Shown piece after piece: positions 55,710 to 62,040 of a DNA stretch of 64,000 nucleotides. Every line of letters starts with the position of its first letter. The first letter of the stretch is position 1. The stretch is from NCBI RefSeq assembly GCF_016632335.1, contig NZ_JAEPBG010000012.1, positions 62,001 to 126,000 of the forward strand, read 5' to 3'. Source of the stretch: Noviherbaspirillum pedocola (GTDB lineage Bacteria > Pseudomonadota > Gammaproteobacteria > Burkholderiales > Burkholderiaceae_D). Under the pieces are notes generated by a model that saw only the letters and a list, made by a program, of their open reading frames with translations, made no database searches and was not told where the DNA came from. Made by a program: the position numbers and the translations under genes.

Positions 55710-56785
55710 TGAGAAAACTGTTGTTGCTGCTGCTGGGTTGCGTTGCGCTGCTCGCCATCACGGCCACAGCCGCGCCGCCGCGCTTTGCCGAGGTCAAGCC
55801 GGAGGATGCGCTGGTCTTTCCGCGCGATTTCGGCGCACATCCTGATTACCGCACCGAGTGGTGGTATGCGACCGGCTGGCTGCAGACGCCGGATGGCAAG
55901 CAGCTCGGCTTTCAACTGACCTTCTTTCGCGCGGCGACCGAGCACGATCGCGACAACCCGAGCAGCTTCGCGCCCAAGCAATTGATCATCGCCCATGCGG
56001 CGCTTTCCGATCCCACGATTGGCCGCTTGCTGCATGACCAGAAGGCCGCGCGCTCAGGCTTCGACCTGGCTTATGCGAAGACCGACAACACCGATGTGAA
56101 GCTGCAGGACTGGCGCTTCGTGCGCGATGAAAAGGGCGTGTATCACGCCAACATCCCGGCCACGGATTTCACGCTGACGCTGGATCTCGCGCCGACGCAG
56201 CCGATCATGCCGCAGGGCGAAGGCGGCTATTCGCGCAAGGGCCCGCTGCCCGGCCAGGCCAGCCATTACTTCAGCGAGCCGCAGCTCAAGGTGTCCGGCA
56301 GCGTGAGCCGCAACGGCAAGCCGGTGGCGGTGACCGGCACGGCCTGGCTGGACCGCGAATGGTCGACCAGCTATCTCGCGCCCGGCGCTTCGGGCTGGGA
56401 CTGGATGGGCATCAATCTCGATGACGGCTCGGCGCTGATGGCCTTTCGCATCCGCGCCAAGGATGGCAGTACGCTGTGGTCGCATGCGACCCTGCGCGAC
56501 GCCGCCGGCCGCATGACCCAGTTCGCGCAGCAGGACATCCGCTTTACGCCGCTGCGCAACTGGCGCTCGCCGCATACCGATGCGAGCTATCCGGTGGCGA
56601 TTGCGCTCGATACCGGCGGCATCCGCTGGACGCTGGAGCCGCTGCAGGATGACCAGGAACTCGACTCGCGCGCCTCGACCGGCTCGGTCTACTGGGAAGG
56701 CGCGGTGCGCGTGACGCGCGACGGCAAGCCGGCCGGGCGCGGCTATCTCGAACTGACCGGCTATGTCTCGCCGCTGAAGCTATGA
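55709..56785 (+). CDS. AttH-like lipocalin-fold exported protein
   Basis: A 358-aa precursor with a Sec signal peptide (about 1-22) and an AttH/CrtC-type double lipocalin domain, with motifs [38 protein letters not shown] and [28 protein letters not shown]. AttH proteins are encoded with AttEFG ABC transporters. CrtC relatives hydrate carotenoids, but no carotenoid gene is here. Its ATG shares one base with the permease stop, and its own stop overlaps the next start, so it belongs to the transport set. Confidence 0.88.
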
Positions 56786-58596
56786 CGGATACCAAAGACG
56801 ATACGAAGCGCGATACCCGGAGCGATACACGGCGCGCGCGCGGCCGCCTTGCCGCGCTCACCGGCCTTCTGCCCTTTCTTGCGCCCTACCGGCAACGCTT
56901 TCTCGCGGCCGGCGTGGCGCTGCTGGTTGCGGCTGGCGCCACGCTGGCCATCCCGGTGGCCTTCCGGCAGCTGATCGACCTGGGCTTCGGCGCGGCGGGC
57001 GGCGCCGGCGACCGGCACATCAACCTGTATTTCCTGGCGCTGTTCGGCGTGGCCTGCGTGCTCGGCGCAGCAACCGCGGCGCGCTTTTATTTCGTGTCCT
57101 GGCTGGGCGAACGCGTCACCGCCGACATACGCGCCGCAGTTTATGCGCACGTGGTCACGCAAAGCCCGCAATTCTTCGAAACCGCGCGCGCAGGCGAAGT
57201 GCTGTCGCGCCTGACCACCGACACCACGCTGATTCAGTCGGTGGTCGGCACCAGCATCTCGATGGCGCTGCGCAATGCGTTGCTGTTTGCCGGCGGCATG
57301 GGCATGCTGTTCTATACCAGCGTGAGGTTGTCCTCGATCATCCTGGTCACGCTGCTGGCGGTAGTGCTGCCTATCGTGGCTTTCGGCAGGCAGGTGCGGC
57401 GGCTGTCACGCGATTCGCAGGACCGCATCGCCGATGCGTCGGCGCTGGCCGGCGAGATGCTCAACGCGATGCCGACGGTGCAGGCCTACACCCATGAAGC
57501 GATCGAGGCGCGCCGCTTCGGCGTGGCCGTGGAAGGCGCTTTCGACACCGCCCGGCGCCGCATCCGCGCTCGCGCGCTGCTGACGCTGGTGGCGATCCTG
57601 ATGGTGTTCGGCGCGATCGTCTTCGTGCTGTGGCTGGGCGCGCACGCGGTGCTGGCCGGCACGATGAGCGCCGGGCAGCTCGGCCAGTTCATCCTGTACG
57701 CCACCATTGTCGCCGGCGCGATCGCTGCGCTCTCGGAGGTGATCGGTGAAGCGCAGCGTGCCGCCGGCGCGACCGAGCGGTTGATGGAATTGCTGGCGCT
57801 CGAGTCGCCGGTGCAATCGCCCGCACACCCGTTGCCGCCGGGTGCGCGCAGCAGCGGCGGCGCGGCGCTGAGCCTGGCTGATGTGCGCTTCTGCTATCCG
57901 TCGCGTCCGGGTGCGCCTTCGCTCGATGGCGTATCGCTCGAAGTGAAGCCGGGCGAGACGGTGGCCATCGTCGGCCCGTCCGGCGCCGGCAAGACCACGC
58001 TGTTCCAGCTGCTGCTGCGCTTTTACGATCCGCAGTCCGGCGCGGTGCTGCTCGACGGCGTCGACATTCGTCAACTTGATCTGCATGCCTTGCGCGAGGC
58101 GATCGGCATCGTGCCGCAGGACACGGTGATCTTTTCGGCCGATGCGATGGAGAACATCCGCTATGGCCGCGCCGACGCCAGCGATACCGATGTCATCGCC
58201 GCGGCGAAGCTCGCAGCCGCGCATGAATTCATCGAGCGACTGCCCGAGGGCTATCGCACTTTCCTCGGCGAGCGCGGCGTGCGGCTCTCGGGCGGACAGC
58301 GCCAGCGCATCGCCATCGCCCGCGCGCTGCTGAAGAATCCGCCGCTCTTGCTGCTCGATGAAGCCACCAGCGCGCTGGATGCAGAGTCGGAGCGGCTGGT
58401 GCAGGGCGCGCTGGAGACGGCAATGCTGAACCGCACGACGCTGGTCATCGCGCACCGGCTGGCGACGGTGCAGCGCGCGGATCGGATCCTGGTGATGGAG
58501 CATGGTCGCGTGGTGGAGAGCGGCACGCATGCGGAGCTGGTGGCCAGGGGTGGCTTGTATGCGAGCCTGGCGGCGCTGCAGTTCAATCTGGGTTGA
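56782..58596 (+). CDS. MsbA-like ABC exporter (fused membrane and ATPase domains)
   Basis: A 604-aa half-transporter. The six-helix membrane domain (about 30-330) includes a [23 protein letters not shown] coupling region. The ATPase has [32 protein letters not shown] and [15 protein letters not shown]. It resembles ABCB/MsbA-type lipid or drug exporters. Its start overlaps the AttH-like gene (ATGA), so it is co-translated with a LolD-like system, an unusual pairing. Confidence 0.93.
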
Positions 58597-58703: not shown

Positions 58704-58750
58704 GCAGTTGCAGTTGCAGTTGCAGTTGCAGTTGCAGTTGCAGTTGCAGT
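58704..58750 (+). repeat. Hexanucleotide array (GCAGTT) x 7.8
   Basis: Seven exact units of GCAGTT plus five bases, uninterrupted, followed by degenerate TTGCCGTTGTAG-like units to about 58790. The unit is the reverse complement of the AACTGC array at 59337, so the two arrays are inverted with respect to each other. Confidence 0.97.
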
Positions 58751-58815
58751 GCCTTTGTCTTTGCCGTTGTAGTTGTAGTTGTTGTTGCCGTTACTTTTAA
58801 CCCCGTTGATTGCGC

Positions 58816-58915
58816 CGTGACGGCGATGCCCGGAGCGGATAAGGTGCGGCGTCTGTTTGAGCGCAGCGCAGCGTAGCGAGTTTAGCCGCGCCCCGCTCCG
58901 GGCATCGACGGCACG
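58816..58915 (+). repeat. Hairpin element, copy 1
   Basis: A 15-bp perfect stem (58824-58838 with 58893-58907) extends outward to 23 positions with two mismatches. The 54-nt loop contains a 4-nt bulge ATAA (58839-58842) and an inner 8-bp stem GGTGCGGC / GCCGCGCC (58843-58850 with 58885-58892, one T-G). Copy 2 shares 53 of the 54 loop bases but has a different stem. Confidence 0.92.
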
Positions 58916-58958
58916 GGACCCCGCGCAGCGGGGCGCAATCTCCGGGGCGCCTTTTCTT

Positions 58959-58991
58959 GCCTACTTCTTTTGGCGCCCAAAAGAAGTAGGC
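58959..58991. repeat. Perfect 15-bp inverted repeat in the centre of the locus
   Basis: GCCTACTTCTTTTGG (58959-58973) and CCAAAAGAAGTAGGC (58977-58991) pair exactly over a 3-nt loop. No T-run follows. I recall related CTTTTGG...CCAAAAG repeats as dispersed intergenic elements in Burkholderiales and Xanthomonadales. Confidence 0.9.
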
Positions 58992-59183
58992 CGGCTGCCG
59001 GGCCGGGACCCGGCTAGGTCGAGGGGGCGCTGAACGTTTTGCGTCACCGGAGTGAGGTGCTCACGGGTGCAGGCTCTTGCCTTGGTCGTCGCGTGATCGA
59101 GGCTTGGATTGAAAGGCCTGCCTGCTCGGAGGCCGACGCCCGATGACCCAATATGGACATCTTGCTTGGCGAGCAAGCCGGGT

Positions 59184-59269
59184 CCGGGCCCTGAAGCGGG
59201 GCGCGGCTAAACTCGCTACGCTGCGCTTCGCTCAAACAGACGCCGCACCTTATCCGCTTCAGGGCCCGG
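59184..59269 (-). repeat. Hairpin element, copy 2 (inverted)
   Basis: A 16-bp perfect stem CCGGGCCCTGAAGCGG / CCGCTTCAGGGCCCGG (59184-59199 with 59254-59269) encloses a 54-nt loop. Read on the minus strand the loop differs from copy 1 at one base only, while the stem differs at several positions with pairing kept on both sides. Confidence 0.92.
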
Positions 59270-59336
59270 CGCCACGGCGCGATCAACGGGATTAAAAGCA
59301 ACGGCAACGGCAACGGCAACGACAAAAGCCAGAACC

Positions 59337-59432
59337 AACTGCAACTGCAACTGCAACTGCAACTGCAACTGCAACTGCAACTGCAACTGCAACTGCAACT
59401 GCAACTGCAACTGCAACTGCAACTGCAACTGC
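59337..59432 (+). repeat. Hexanucleotide array (AACTGC) x 16
   Basis: Ninety-six bases, exactly 16 identical units with no interruption. It is preceded by degenerate AACGGC-like units (about 59297-59322). A 6-base unit cannot cause frameshifts, and no gene covers it. Confidence 0.98.
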
Positions 59433-59559: not shown

Positions 59560-60915
59560 TCAATGCCCCGCATGCATCCGTTTATGCATGCGCCGCAACC
59601 CCAGCCACACCGCGCCGGCGACCACCGGCACCAGCACGCCGGTGCTGATGTCGGCATTGATCGGCAAGCCGGCCGCCTTCAGCGCCTTCGCCGCATAACC
59701 GAGCAGGCCGATCATGTAGTACGAGATCGCCGCCACCGACAAGCCTTCCACCGCCTGCTGCAACTGCAGTTGCTGCGCTGCCCTGGCATTCATCGATTGC
59801 AGAATCTGCCGGTTCTGCTGTTCCTGCACGATGCCGACGCGGGTGCGCAGCAAATCGTTGGTCTGCGCGATGCGTCGCGCCAGCGCTTCCTGGCGGCTGG
59901 AGATGGCGGCGCAGGTGCTGGCCGCGGGCGTGAGGCGCCGGTCCATGAACTCCTCCACCGTCGGAAAGCCTTCGATACGCTCCTCGCGCAACTCCTCGAT
60001 GCGCGCAGCCACCAGCCGGAAATACGCCTGCGATGCCGAGAAGCGGTAGTTGTTGTCCACCGCGAGATTTTCCAGCCGCGCGGCCAGGCGCGTGATGTTG
60101 TCCAGCAGCCCCTGCTCCTGCACCGATTCAGCCGCGGACTGGTGATGCAGCGTGCCGCCGTTCATGCCATCGGTTTCGATCATGGCGGCAGTCAGTTCGG
60201 CCAGCTCATCCTCGATCGCATTCAGCACCGGCGTAGCACGCTGCGCATGCGGCAGGCCGAGCAGCGCCATCATGCGATAGGTCTCGATCTCCAGCATGCG
60301 CTGCACCAGGCGGCCGGCCTGCTGTTCGCGCAGGCCGACGTCGCGCACGACAATGCGGGAAAAGCCATCGGACTGCACCAGGAAGTCGGTCCAGATTTCC
60401 GCGCCGTGCAGCACCCGGCTGCCGACCAGCAGCTTGCCTTCGAACACCCGGCGCAGGCCGTGCGCGAAGTCCTGAGCCGCGCCGGAGGAAGCGTCGAGCA
60501 CGACGTGGGTGGCGACCATCAGCCGGCCCTGCAACGCCGACAGCCATTGCTGCGGAATCTGGTGCAGCGGCACGCGGCCGAAGGCTTCGTCCACCGGCAG
60601 CGCTTCCTCGTGGCGCTGGGCGAAGGTGTAGGTGGCGAACTCGGTATGGCTTTCCCATTTCAGGCGGAAGCGGCCGAAATCGTGGAAGAAGAACTTCGCC
60701 TCCTCGGCCGGCGCGGACACGCCGAAATGCCGGCACAGGTCGGTCAGCAAGCCATGCTGCAGCCGGGCATTCGTCGCGCCCGGCGCGAGGTCGTCGCGCA
60801 CATACACCGCCAGATGGGTGATGCTTTCCGGCGCATGCAGCTCGAGAAAGGGACGGGAATGGATTTCGGCGGCAAGCGGCACGCGCAGCGCGTGATTCAG
60901 GCTGGAATAAATCAT
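59560..60915 (-). CDS. DUF3422 family membrane protein
   Basis: A 451-aa protein of the DUF3422 family. A soluble N-terminal part has the conserved RVPLAAEIHSRPFLELHAPE. A middle helical region follows, then two C-terminal membrane helices (about 400-450, VEGLSVAAISYYMIGLLGY and VLVPVVAGAVWLGL) before a basic His-rich end. The membrane part resembles DUF3422 proteins of unknown role. The start at 60915 (MIYSSLNHALRVPL) fits the family, and the frame continues to 61122 through the thyA promoter region. It is divergent from thyA. Confidence 0.88.
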   Translation of the reverse strand: MIYSSLNHALRVPLAAEIHSRPFLELHAPESITHLAVYVRDDLAPGATNARLQHGLLTDLCRHFGVSAPAEEAKFFFHDFGRFRLKWESHTEFATYTFAQRHEEALPVDEAFGRVPLHQIPQQWLSALQGRLMVATHVVLDASSGAAQDFAHGLRRVFEGKLLVGSRVLHGAEIWTDFLVQSDGFSRIVVRDVGLREQQAGRLVQRMLEIETYRMMALLGLPHAQRATPVLNAIEDELAELTAAMIETDGMNGGTLHHQSAAESVQEQGLLDNITRLAARLENLAVDNNYRFSASQAYFRLVAARIEELREERIEGFPTVEEFMDRRLTPAASTCAAISSRQEALARRIAQTNDLLRTRVGIVQEQQNRQILQSMNARAAQQLQLQQAVEGLSVAAISYYMIGLLGYAAKALKAAGLPINADISTGVLVPVVAGAVWLGLRRMHKRMHAGH

Positions 60916-61038
60916 CAGGTTGGCAGGATGGAATGGCTGAACTGGCAAGGAAGCGGCATTGTAGCCGCTGCGAGCGGGGCGGCATCGCGGGCGAAACCGC
61001 AGCAAGACCGGCAGGCGGCGCCAACGGATGTCGTGCGT

Positions 61039-61044
61039 TAGAAT
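61039..61044 (+). promoter_or_regulatory. Candidate -10 box of thyA
   Basis: TAGAAT lies 24 bases before the thyA ATG, predicting a leader of about 18 nt. A -35 is not clear. Confidence 0.4.
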
Positions 61045-61068
61045 GGCGCGCTCATCAAGCGCACACTC

Positions 61069-62040
61069 ATGAAAGCCTACCTCGACCTCGTCCGCACCAT
61101 CCTCGACACCGGAAGCTGGCAAGACAACCGCACCGGTATACGAACAATCAGCATCCCCGGCGCGATGATGCGCTTTGACCTGAACGACGGTTTCCCGGCC
61201 GTGACCACGAAACGGCTTGCCTTCAAGTCAGTGGTCGGCGAATTGGTCGGCTTTTTGCGCGCCACGCGCAGCGCCGCCGATTTCCGTGCGCTCGGCTGCA
61301 AGGTTTGGGATCAGAACGCCAATGAAAACGCGGATTGGCTCGCCAACCCGTACCGCGCCGGCCCCGACGACCTCGGCCCGGTCTACGGCGCGCAATGGCG
61401 GCAATGGCCGGCATACAAGCTGATCGACGCCGACCAGGCCGCGCAGATCGACGACGCCGAGCGCCGCGGCTTTCGCTGCGTGTCGCGCCTCGAGGATGAA
61501 GGCCGTCCCAAGCTGCTGATGTATCGCGCGGTCGATCAGATCCGCGAATGCCTGGACACCATCATCAACAACCCGGGCAGCCGGCGCATCCTGTTCCACG
61601 GCTGGAATCCGGCGGTGCTGGATGCAGTCGCGCTGCCGGCCTGCCACCTGCTGTACCAGTTCATTCCGAACGCAAGCACCCGTGAAATCTCGCTGTGCCT
61701 GTACATCCGCAGCAACGACATCGGCCTGGGCGCGCCATTCAATCTCGCCGAGGGCGCGGCGCTGCTGCACCTGGTCGGCCGCCTCACCGGCTACAAGCCG
61801 CGCTGGTTCAGCTATTTCATCGGCGATGCGCACATCTATGAAAACCATCTCGACATGCTGCGCGAGCAGCTCGAGCGCGAGCCGTATCCGCTGCCGAAAC
61901 TGGTGATTGCCGATCGCGTGCCCGATCATGCGAAGACCGGGCGGTACGAGCCGGAATGGCTGGAGAAGATCGAGCCCGGCGATTTCTCGCTCGAAGGCTA
62001 CCGGCACCATCCGCCGCTGACCGCGCCCATGGCCGTCTGA
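61069..62040 (+). CDS. thyA: Thymidylate synthase (long form)
   Basis: ThyA methylates dUMP to dTMP with methylenetetrahydrofolate. The 323-aa enzyme has the start [20 protein letters not shown], the GPVYGAQWR motif (103-111) and the catalytic Cys192 in [27 protein letters not shown] and [15 protein letters not shown] follow. It is about 60 residues longer than E. coli ThyA (264 aa), chiefly because of an insertion after GAQWR (about 112-155). The Pro usually found before the Cys dipeptide is Ala. A terminator follows. Confidence 0.95.

Follow-up and report, generated by a model that had tools for sequence, protein, structure and literature searches.

Two inverted hairpins at 58816-59269 of a 64,000-nt stretch of Noviherbaspirillum pedocola DNA (hereafter the window) raise the question of why their loops are kept almost letter for letter when the stems enclosing them have drifted and still pair perfectly. 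The first-pass annotation of this DNA took the pattern as a sign that the folded form matters, and left open whether the unit is a structured RNA, a bidirectional terminator or a hairpin substrate for a mobile-element recombinase. On balance it is probable that the locus is one copy of a dispersed mobile repeat, non-coding and non-autonomous, and that recognition acts on one strand in its folded form, most likely as RNA. Behind this reading stand the many copies of the element, gaps that lack it at two sites, a fold kept by compensatory change, a strand marked by wobble pairs and a hexamer tract at the 5' end.

The Element in the Window

The arms of copy 1 (58824-58838 and 58893-58907) are exact reverse complements of 15 bp, as are the outer 16 bases on each side of copy 2, which lies on the minus strand at 59184-59269. 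Both loops are 54 nt in length and differ at one position, and both contain an inner 8-bp stem and an ATAA bulge, so that the coordinates, the perfect stems, the 53/54 loop identity and the internal features first described were all exact on recheck. Folding z-scores on the two strands were -6.5 and -5.8 for copy 1 and -6.1 and -6.4 for copy 2, and in neither case was any of 200 dinucleotide shuffles as stable. Pairing in copy 1 runs on to 58815-58916 (24 nt per arm, 92%), and both copies are the ends of a larger inverted repeat, in which 58754-58902 pairs with 59190-59338 (84%) and outside both arms of which lie hexamer arrays. The element sits between two convergent genes, an upstream ABC transporter gene on the plus strand (56782-58596; PF00664, PF00005) and a downstream gene on the minus strand for a DUF3422 protein (PF11902; ORF 59560-61122), for which two named relatives were found, both from Noviherbaspirillum.

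The sense strand of a unit is taken as the strand that reads TGTYTGAG. On this strand, the 5' part of the unit consists of the hexamer tract, a leader with CCCC, the 5' strand of a closing stem (P0) and the main hairpin (P1), which comprises an asymmetric bulge (ATAA, or AAAA with an extra G), the inner stem, an internal loop TGTYTGA/GAGTT and an apical stem (P2). P1 is followed by GGGAACC or a similar sequence, a small hairpin (P3), the 3' strand of P0, GGG(G), a T-rich stretch and a further hairpin, here called the AAAAG hairpin. Each half of the element, on one strand, can be folded as a proposed three-way junction of P0, P1 (with P2) and P3. What was first said of the loop and stem, that the one is fixed and the other free, therefore stands, but the unit is larger than a hairpin, with the proposed junction, the further hairpin and the hexamer tail added to it.

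In the left unit of the window, which lies on the plus strand, a pattern search of the genome placed the 5' hexamer tail, (GCAGTT)n followed by diverged hexamers, at 58704-58793. The leader, TTTTAACCCCGTTGATTGCGC, occupies 58795-58815 and holds the putative 5' strand of P0 (58801-58804 and 58808-58815), and the P1 hairpin, which is copy 1 in widened form, spans 58816-58915. Within it, the fixed internal loop has its 5' side, TGTTTGAG, at 58854-58861 and its 3' side, GAGTT, at 58878-58882. The predicted P3, CCCCGCGCAGCGGGG, follows at 58919-58933 and the predicted 3' strand of P0, GCGCAATC-TCC-GGGG, at 58933-58947, its first G being common to P3; the AAAAG hairpin, CCTACTTCTTTTGGCGCCCAAAAGAAGTAGG, lies at 58960-58990. 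A spacer (59022-59177) separates this unit from the right one, in which, on the minus strand, the P1 hairpin (copy 2, widened) is found at 59178-59277, the leader at 59277-59296 and the 5' hexamer tail, (GTTGCN)n on the minus strand and diverged at 59317-59335, at 59297-59432.

The right half of the window element is truncated. It lacks P3, the 3' strand of P0 and the AAAAG hairpin, all of which are present in the left copy, and the pair is some 105 nt shorter than usual, its loops being spaced by 386 nt as compared with 468-502 nt in the other 19 pairs of the genome. Among 115 hairpins, the parts that follow P1 are visibly missing only in this copy and in three solo hairpins (L138, L157 and L158).

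The conserved unit from P0 to P3 measures ~150 nt, and ~280 nt in G326, a genome of another family in which 13 aligned copies define an asymmetric unit with a block from ~GTTGCYTTTGAC to ~GCGCYAACA and with further hairpin-like inverted repeats close to its 3' end. A small repeat like GTGGATTGTCGC...CCAAATCCACC often stands just behind the G326 unit (L231, L232, L236, L242 and others).

A scan for terminators returned six terminator-like sites as compared with 1.3 in shuffled sequence, four of them in hexamer arrays and two being 5-pair stems. Neither P1 nor the AAAAG hairpin provides the GC-rich stem directly followed by a T-run that an intrinsic terminator would have; with no T-run directly 3' of either stem, the bidirectional terminator considered in the first-pass annotation was dropped.

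Compensatory Change in the Stems

Selection on the folded form was examined in an alignment of 75 of the 131 available Noviherbaspirillum-like units (from the three genomes G000, G001 and G003), scored against a structure of 52 named pairs. The 75 units and 52 pairs give 3893 cells, 95.5% of which are paired. Both sides had changed in 15 of the 52 pairs, as compared with a shuffled mean of 11.5 (2 of 500 shuffles), and 211 cells showed two-sided change, as compared with a mean of 62.3 (0 of 500); the covariation score was 0.166 against 0.078 in shuffles (0 of 500). Since the kinship of the sequences inflates shuffle tests, controls in which the structure was slid along the alignment carry more weight, and these gave at most 7 pairs and 20 cells with two-sided change. 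Compensatory change of the kind expected of a structured RNA thus exceeds both sets of controls, with reservations on P0 and P3.

Two-sided change is distributed over P1 (11 of 23 pairs), P2 (2 of 5), the main stretch of P0 (1 of 5) and P3 (1 of 6); seven of the eight inner-stem pairs never vary. The weakest helix is P0, with 80.3% of its cells paired: one column pair is mismatched in 53 of the 75 units, and five rows with another P0 (CTGTG/CACAG) are misaligned and so counted against it. The RNAalifold consensus contains 44 pairs, 10 of them with two-sided change, and keeps P1 and the inner stem, but it pairs the strands of P0 and P3 otherwise and predicts neither helix as drawn here, so that the three-way junction is less secure than P1.

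The apical stems of other genera are highly diverse, and pairing is seen in the majority of those that are longer. An alignment of 30 of the 34 core sequences from these genera yielded 63 two-sided cells as compared with 31.9 in shuffles (0 of 500), but no excess of two-sided pairs (8 against 7.8), and the structure slid by -2 still gave 33 two-sided cells; owing to the roughness of this alignment, no more than 70% of its cells are paired. The low divergence of copies within a genome could stem from gene conversion.

Strand-Specific Wobble Pairs

If hairpin stems decay symmetrically, G.T and A.C mismatches are expected in equal number. Wobble pairs were counted on the sense strand over the 20 outer pairs of 121 of 127 parsed hairpins, the other six being left out because their innermost three pairs were unpaired in the fixed register. 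The count gave 2192 Watson-Crick, 109 G.T, 8 A.C and 111 other cells. Three positions account for 82 of the 109 G.T cells, and when each position and type is counted once, 15 G.T stand against 5 A.C. In the AAAAG hairpin, 51 distinct units gave 35 G.T and 2 A.C, a count that favours G.T, since A.C was taken from single in-stem mismatches only and G.T from anywhere in the stem.

The simplest reason for the bias is selection on the sense strand as RNA. Folded DNA of the sense strand could also be its source, and strand-biased or transcription-linked C-to-T mutation could mimic it. It is from this bias that an RNA form is preferred to one of single-stranded DNA. Together with the two-sided changes above shuffled and slid controls and the P1 and P2 covariation in other genera, the bias leaves the early proposal that the folded form is under selection well supported.

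Copies and Pairs Within Genomes

A 100-base hairpin query gave 44 matches in the N. pedocola genome (7.24 Mb in 80 contigs), some of them partial, and the loop word with up to three mismatches gave 62 (33 plus, 29 minus) as compared with 3 for the word read backwards. The same word was found 74 times in G001, 74 times in G003 and once in G002, all of the same genus, and a DNA search of 60 genomes returned matches in five, namely the home genome, G001, G003 and two with weak matches. The consensus sequence of the element differs between genomes. Stems that change without pairing, or copies that persist only as decayed remnants, either of which would have removed the case for selection on structure, were not what these searches and the stem alignment brought to light.

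In the home genome, 40 of the 62 matches form 20 pairs in which a plus loop precedes a minus loop at a spacing of 386 to 502 nt. The other 22 comprise 18 within 450 bases of a contig end, so that the element marks breaks in the draft assembly, and 4 single matches, three of which are the solo palindromic hairpins mentioned above. Inverted doublets of the REP/REPIN kind are thus found in the pairs of this genome, and likewise in those of G003 and G698.

Some pairs carry insertions of their own. All seven long pairs of G003 (L117-L123) carry a 1495-1496-bp IS66-family element (PF03050) within the AAAAG hairpin, whose 8-nt loop is the point of insertion. In five of the seven, copies of this loop, GGCGAAGC or GCTTCGCC, flank the insert at either end in the same orientation, and in L119 and L123 the flanking copies are in inverted orientation, which suggests that the IS66-family element targets the hairpin tip in both orientations. 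These 1.5-kb inserts were considered as an autonomous version of the repeat and rejected, being an IS66-family element with its own ends. In G698, an insertion that carries an integrase-core ORF (PF00665) interrupts the P1 of one pair (L324, 581900-584900), and two further pairs (L325 and L326) are about as long.

Spread Beyond the Genus

The core pattern TGTYTGAGCGN{0,25}GCGAGTT was found in 73 of 300 genomes of the order, the home genome included with 62 matches, and in up to 30 copies in another; the backwards control gave one match in each of five genomes. Single matches at L208, L214, L215, L223 and L224 are evidently due to chance, because their surroundings show no unit. A model built from the cores of other genera (R1) detected the element at E<=0.001 in 15 of 398 genomes of the phylum, again including the home genome, and seven of these belong to other orders of the class. 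The E-values are rough and the genomes partly draft, and since at most 12 candidates per genome were scored, the figure of 15 of 398 should be read as a minimum. G698, which belongs to another order, has 38 matches, in 16 inward pairs (32 matches) and 6 singles.

On plasmids, partial matches occurred in 13 of 72,556 records (11, 0, 2 and 0 for four variant queries), and those in the 11 records cover little more than the AAAAG hairpin. One query against phages and one exact pattern against viral contigs gave no match. This near-absence from plasmids and phages, as judged from few variants, is odd for a selfish element. In G700, many matches of ~80 nt to the AAAAG-hairpin part were observed where R1 finds no core, and the AAAAG hairpin may be a repeat of its own there. 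The orientation of the G700 matches relative to the replichores looked uneven among those listed; a replication-strand bias drawn from them was dropped, these matches being of the AAAAG-hairpin type. In G282, 17 units showed no such bias, 7 of them being oriented with the leading strand, 9 opposite to it and 1 lying at the boundary, the origin and terminus being judged by eye from a coarse GC skew.

Sites With and Without the Element

Two sites were found where a related genome lacks the element. At the first, G699 has 17 nt where its genus-mate G326 has 376; at this empty site, the sole one aligned, no clear target duplication was found and the borders are not sharp. The second is the window locus itself, since in Noviherbaspirillum soli the same two convergent genes are present with neither element nor hexamers between them and with a 149-aa ORF in the gap.

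Comparison of 25 loci of G000 with 40 of G003 revealed one pair of loci (L156/L167) in which both flanking genes are similar, and a few that share one similar neighbour gene. L156 and L167 occupy the same gap in two species, and each element has the consensus of its own species, which suggests concerted evolution or independent insertion.

The Hexamer Tail

The tract 5' of the units accompanies them widely. In the home genome, (GTTGCN)3GTTG matches at 289 positions, overlapping ones included (152 plus, 137 minus), as compared with 97 for the backwards control, which GTTGCC arrays can themselves match. The matches listed, 100 of the 289, form 19 runs on contigs C1 to C10. Every one of them is found no more than 200 bases from an element loop, 99 being 5' of it on the sense strand and the remaining one on the far side of a solo palindromic copy; hexamer and loop positions were compared by eye.

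Upstream of the units, mean autocorrelation was highest at period 6, with 0.48 in G000, 0.49 in G003, 0.37 in G326 (where it equals that at period 12) and 0.37 in G698, against 0.26 to 0.31 downstream in these four genomes. A strict period-6 test was passed by 28 of 56 units in G000, 25 of 69 in G003, 2 of 12 in G326 and 2 of 29 in G698. The signal is weak in G134 (0.35 as compared with 0.30, five units), and no period-6 tail was found in G282 (four units) or in other genus-mates of G326 (three units). The hexamer tail is common, not universal, and the element raises the question of why a period-6 tract travels along with it.

What May Move the Element

Under the reading favoured here, the unit would be copied by machinery that acts in trans and uses the fixed internal loop to recognise the strand in its folded form, most likely RNA; the stems could drift freely as long as pairing is kept. 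What is copied would apparently be two inverted units that face inward in Noviherbaspirillum-like genomes and G698, and a single unit or an outward pair in other genera. The one family searched for as a possible mover was Y1; neither a transposase, a reverse transcriptase nor any other mover came to light.

The search for Y1 bears on the idea that the element is REP-like, with a folded single DNA strand on which a Y1 (RAYT/IS200-type) transposase, or some other recombinase that reads structure, would act. Like REPs, the element forms inverted hairpin doublets in dozens of copies, often behind genes, and G.T pairs occur in folded DNA too. At E<=0.001, Y1 matches were present in 19 of 29 core-bearing genomes and in 17 of 25 that are core-poor or core-free (all hand-picked, some of them drafts), proportions that indicate no association. 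The home genome has three Y1 matches, none of them beside a loop match. The ten core-bearing genomes without a Y1 match include G326 with 30 core matches, G312 with 14, G282 with 11, G134 with 10 and G202 with 9, as well as G070, G272, G091, G208 and G033. Dependence on RAYT was rejected on these grounds: the element is independent of the Y1/RAYT system, and in G326 a REP system is not its engine. With the near-even division of G282 units between the replication strands also weighing against it, the REP-like reading appears unlikely.

Gene context bears on a different proposal, in which the repeat has become a host RNA element at mRNA 3' ends that acts in stability, processing or termination, its mobility being older. 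The RNA-like covariation and strand bias fit such a role, and so does placement: by a rough ORF caller, 38 of 65 loci lie between convergent genes, 21 between tandem genes and 5 between divergent genes, with 1 undetermined, and one of the empty sites falls between a stop codon and a terminator-like hairpin. Against it, single units between tandem genes in other genera lie 8 in sense and 7 in antisense, or 6 and 6 once a duplicate (L222, the same as L231) and two of the chance matches (L208 and L223) are removed. Sites are rarely common to both species, and the stems lack the T-run noted above. The frequent place behind genes looks like tolerance rather than a function on host mRNA, and we consider this proposal improbable.

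The mobile repeat recognised by its fold could be given a more specific form, as a bacterial counterpart of SINEs. A reverse transcriptase acting in trans would return its folded non-coding RNA to the chromosome as DNA copies, the hexamers would reflect slippage at the 5' end of the RNA, the internal loop would be the handle for the enzyme and the element would have spread within this order and to others of the class; in so much detail the idea is speculative and quite unlikely to hold as a whole. An ordinary MITE or decaying palindrome with compensatory changes due to gene conversion between its arms, which the inverted halves and the similarity of copies within a genome might recall, is very improbable, since arm conversion predicts no strand-specific excess of G.T over A.C, no fixed asymmetric internal loop and no common core with other stems in other orders, and there is no target duplication at the one aligned empty site.

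Relation to Known Systems

A multi-helix fold with covariation is what the element has in common with Rfam families. No family reached the gathering score over the element in the window, where only a tRNA elsewhere was recognised, or at 23 other loci; a more permissive search produced 43 matches below that score, 39 of which fall in hexamer tracts; they are mostly to microRNA models and were taken as chance. Neither a name nor a description of the element was found among the papers listed by searches of open-licence literature. If the present reading is true, Rfam 15 and those papers lack a structured, strand-specific repeat with a fixed internal-loop motif, yet its core pattern occurs in about a quarter of the sampled genomes of the order. 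Many new structured families in bordetellae and pseudomonads are reported in PMC2267715, and a relative may be among them. The element could be a mobile one, recognised by its shape, that has so far gone unnoticed.

REPs are imperfect palindromes of 20-40 nt that form inverted doublets with hairpins, in dozens of copies and often behind genes. REP, BIME and REPIN elements and their RAYT transposases are the subject of PMC3686654 and PMC8049555. The present element resembles them in being chromosomal, in its many copies, hairpins and inverted doublets and in its frequent place behind genes, but its unit is longer than a REP palindrome, at ~150-280 nt, and includes a hexamer tail as well as the proposed three-way junction. 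It offers a way to ask what recognises folded repeats in genomes where RAYT is missing.

The attC sites of integrons act as a single strand that folds, its stems free in sequence and certain of its unpaired bases fixed. All three features have their likeness here, but no GTTRRRY/RYYYAAC boxes were seen by eye, and the element is dispersed rather than arranged in cassette arrays. ERIC, NEMIS and YPAL elements are dispersed long stem-loops that may act in RNA, and the present element is likewise a dispersed folding repeat with possible action as RNA; it differs from them in that here the stem varies and the internal loop is fixed across orders.
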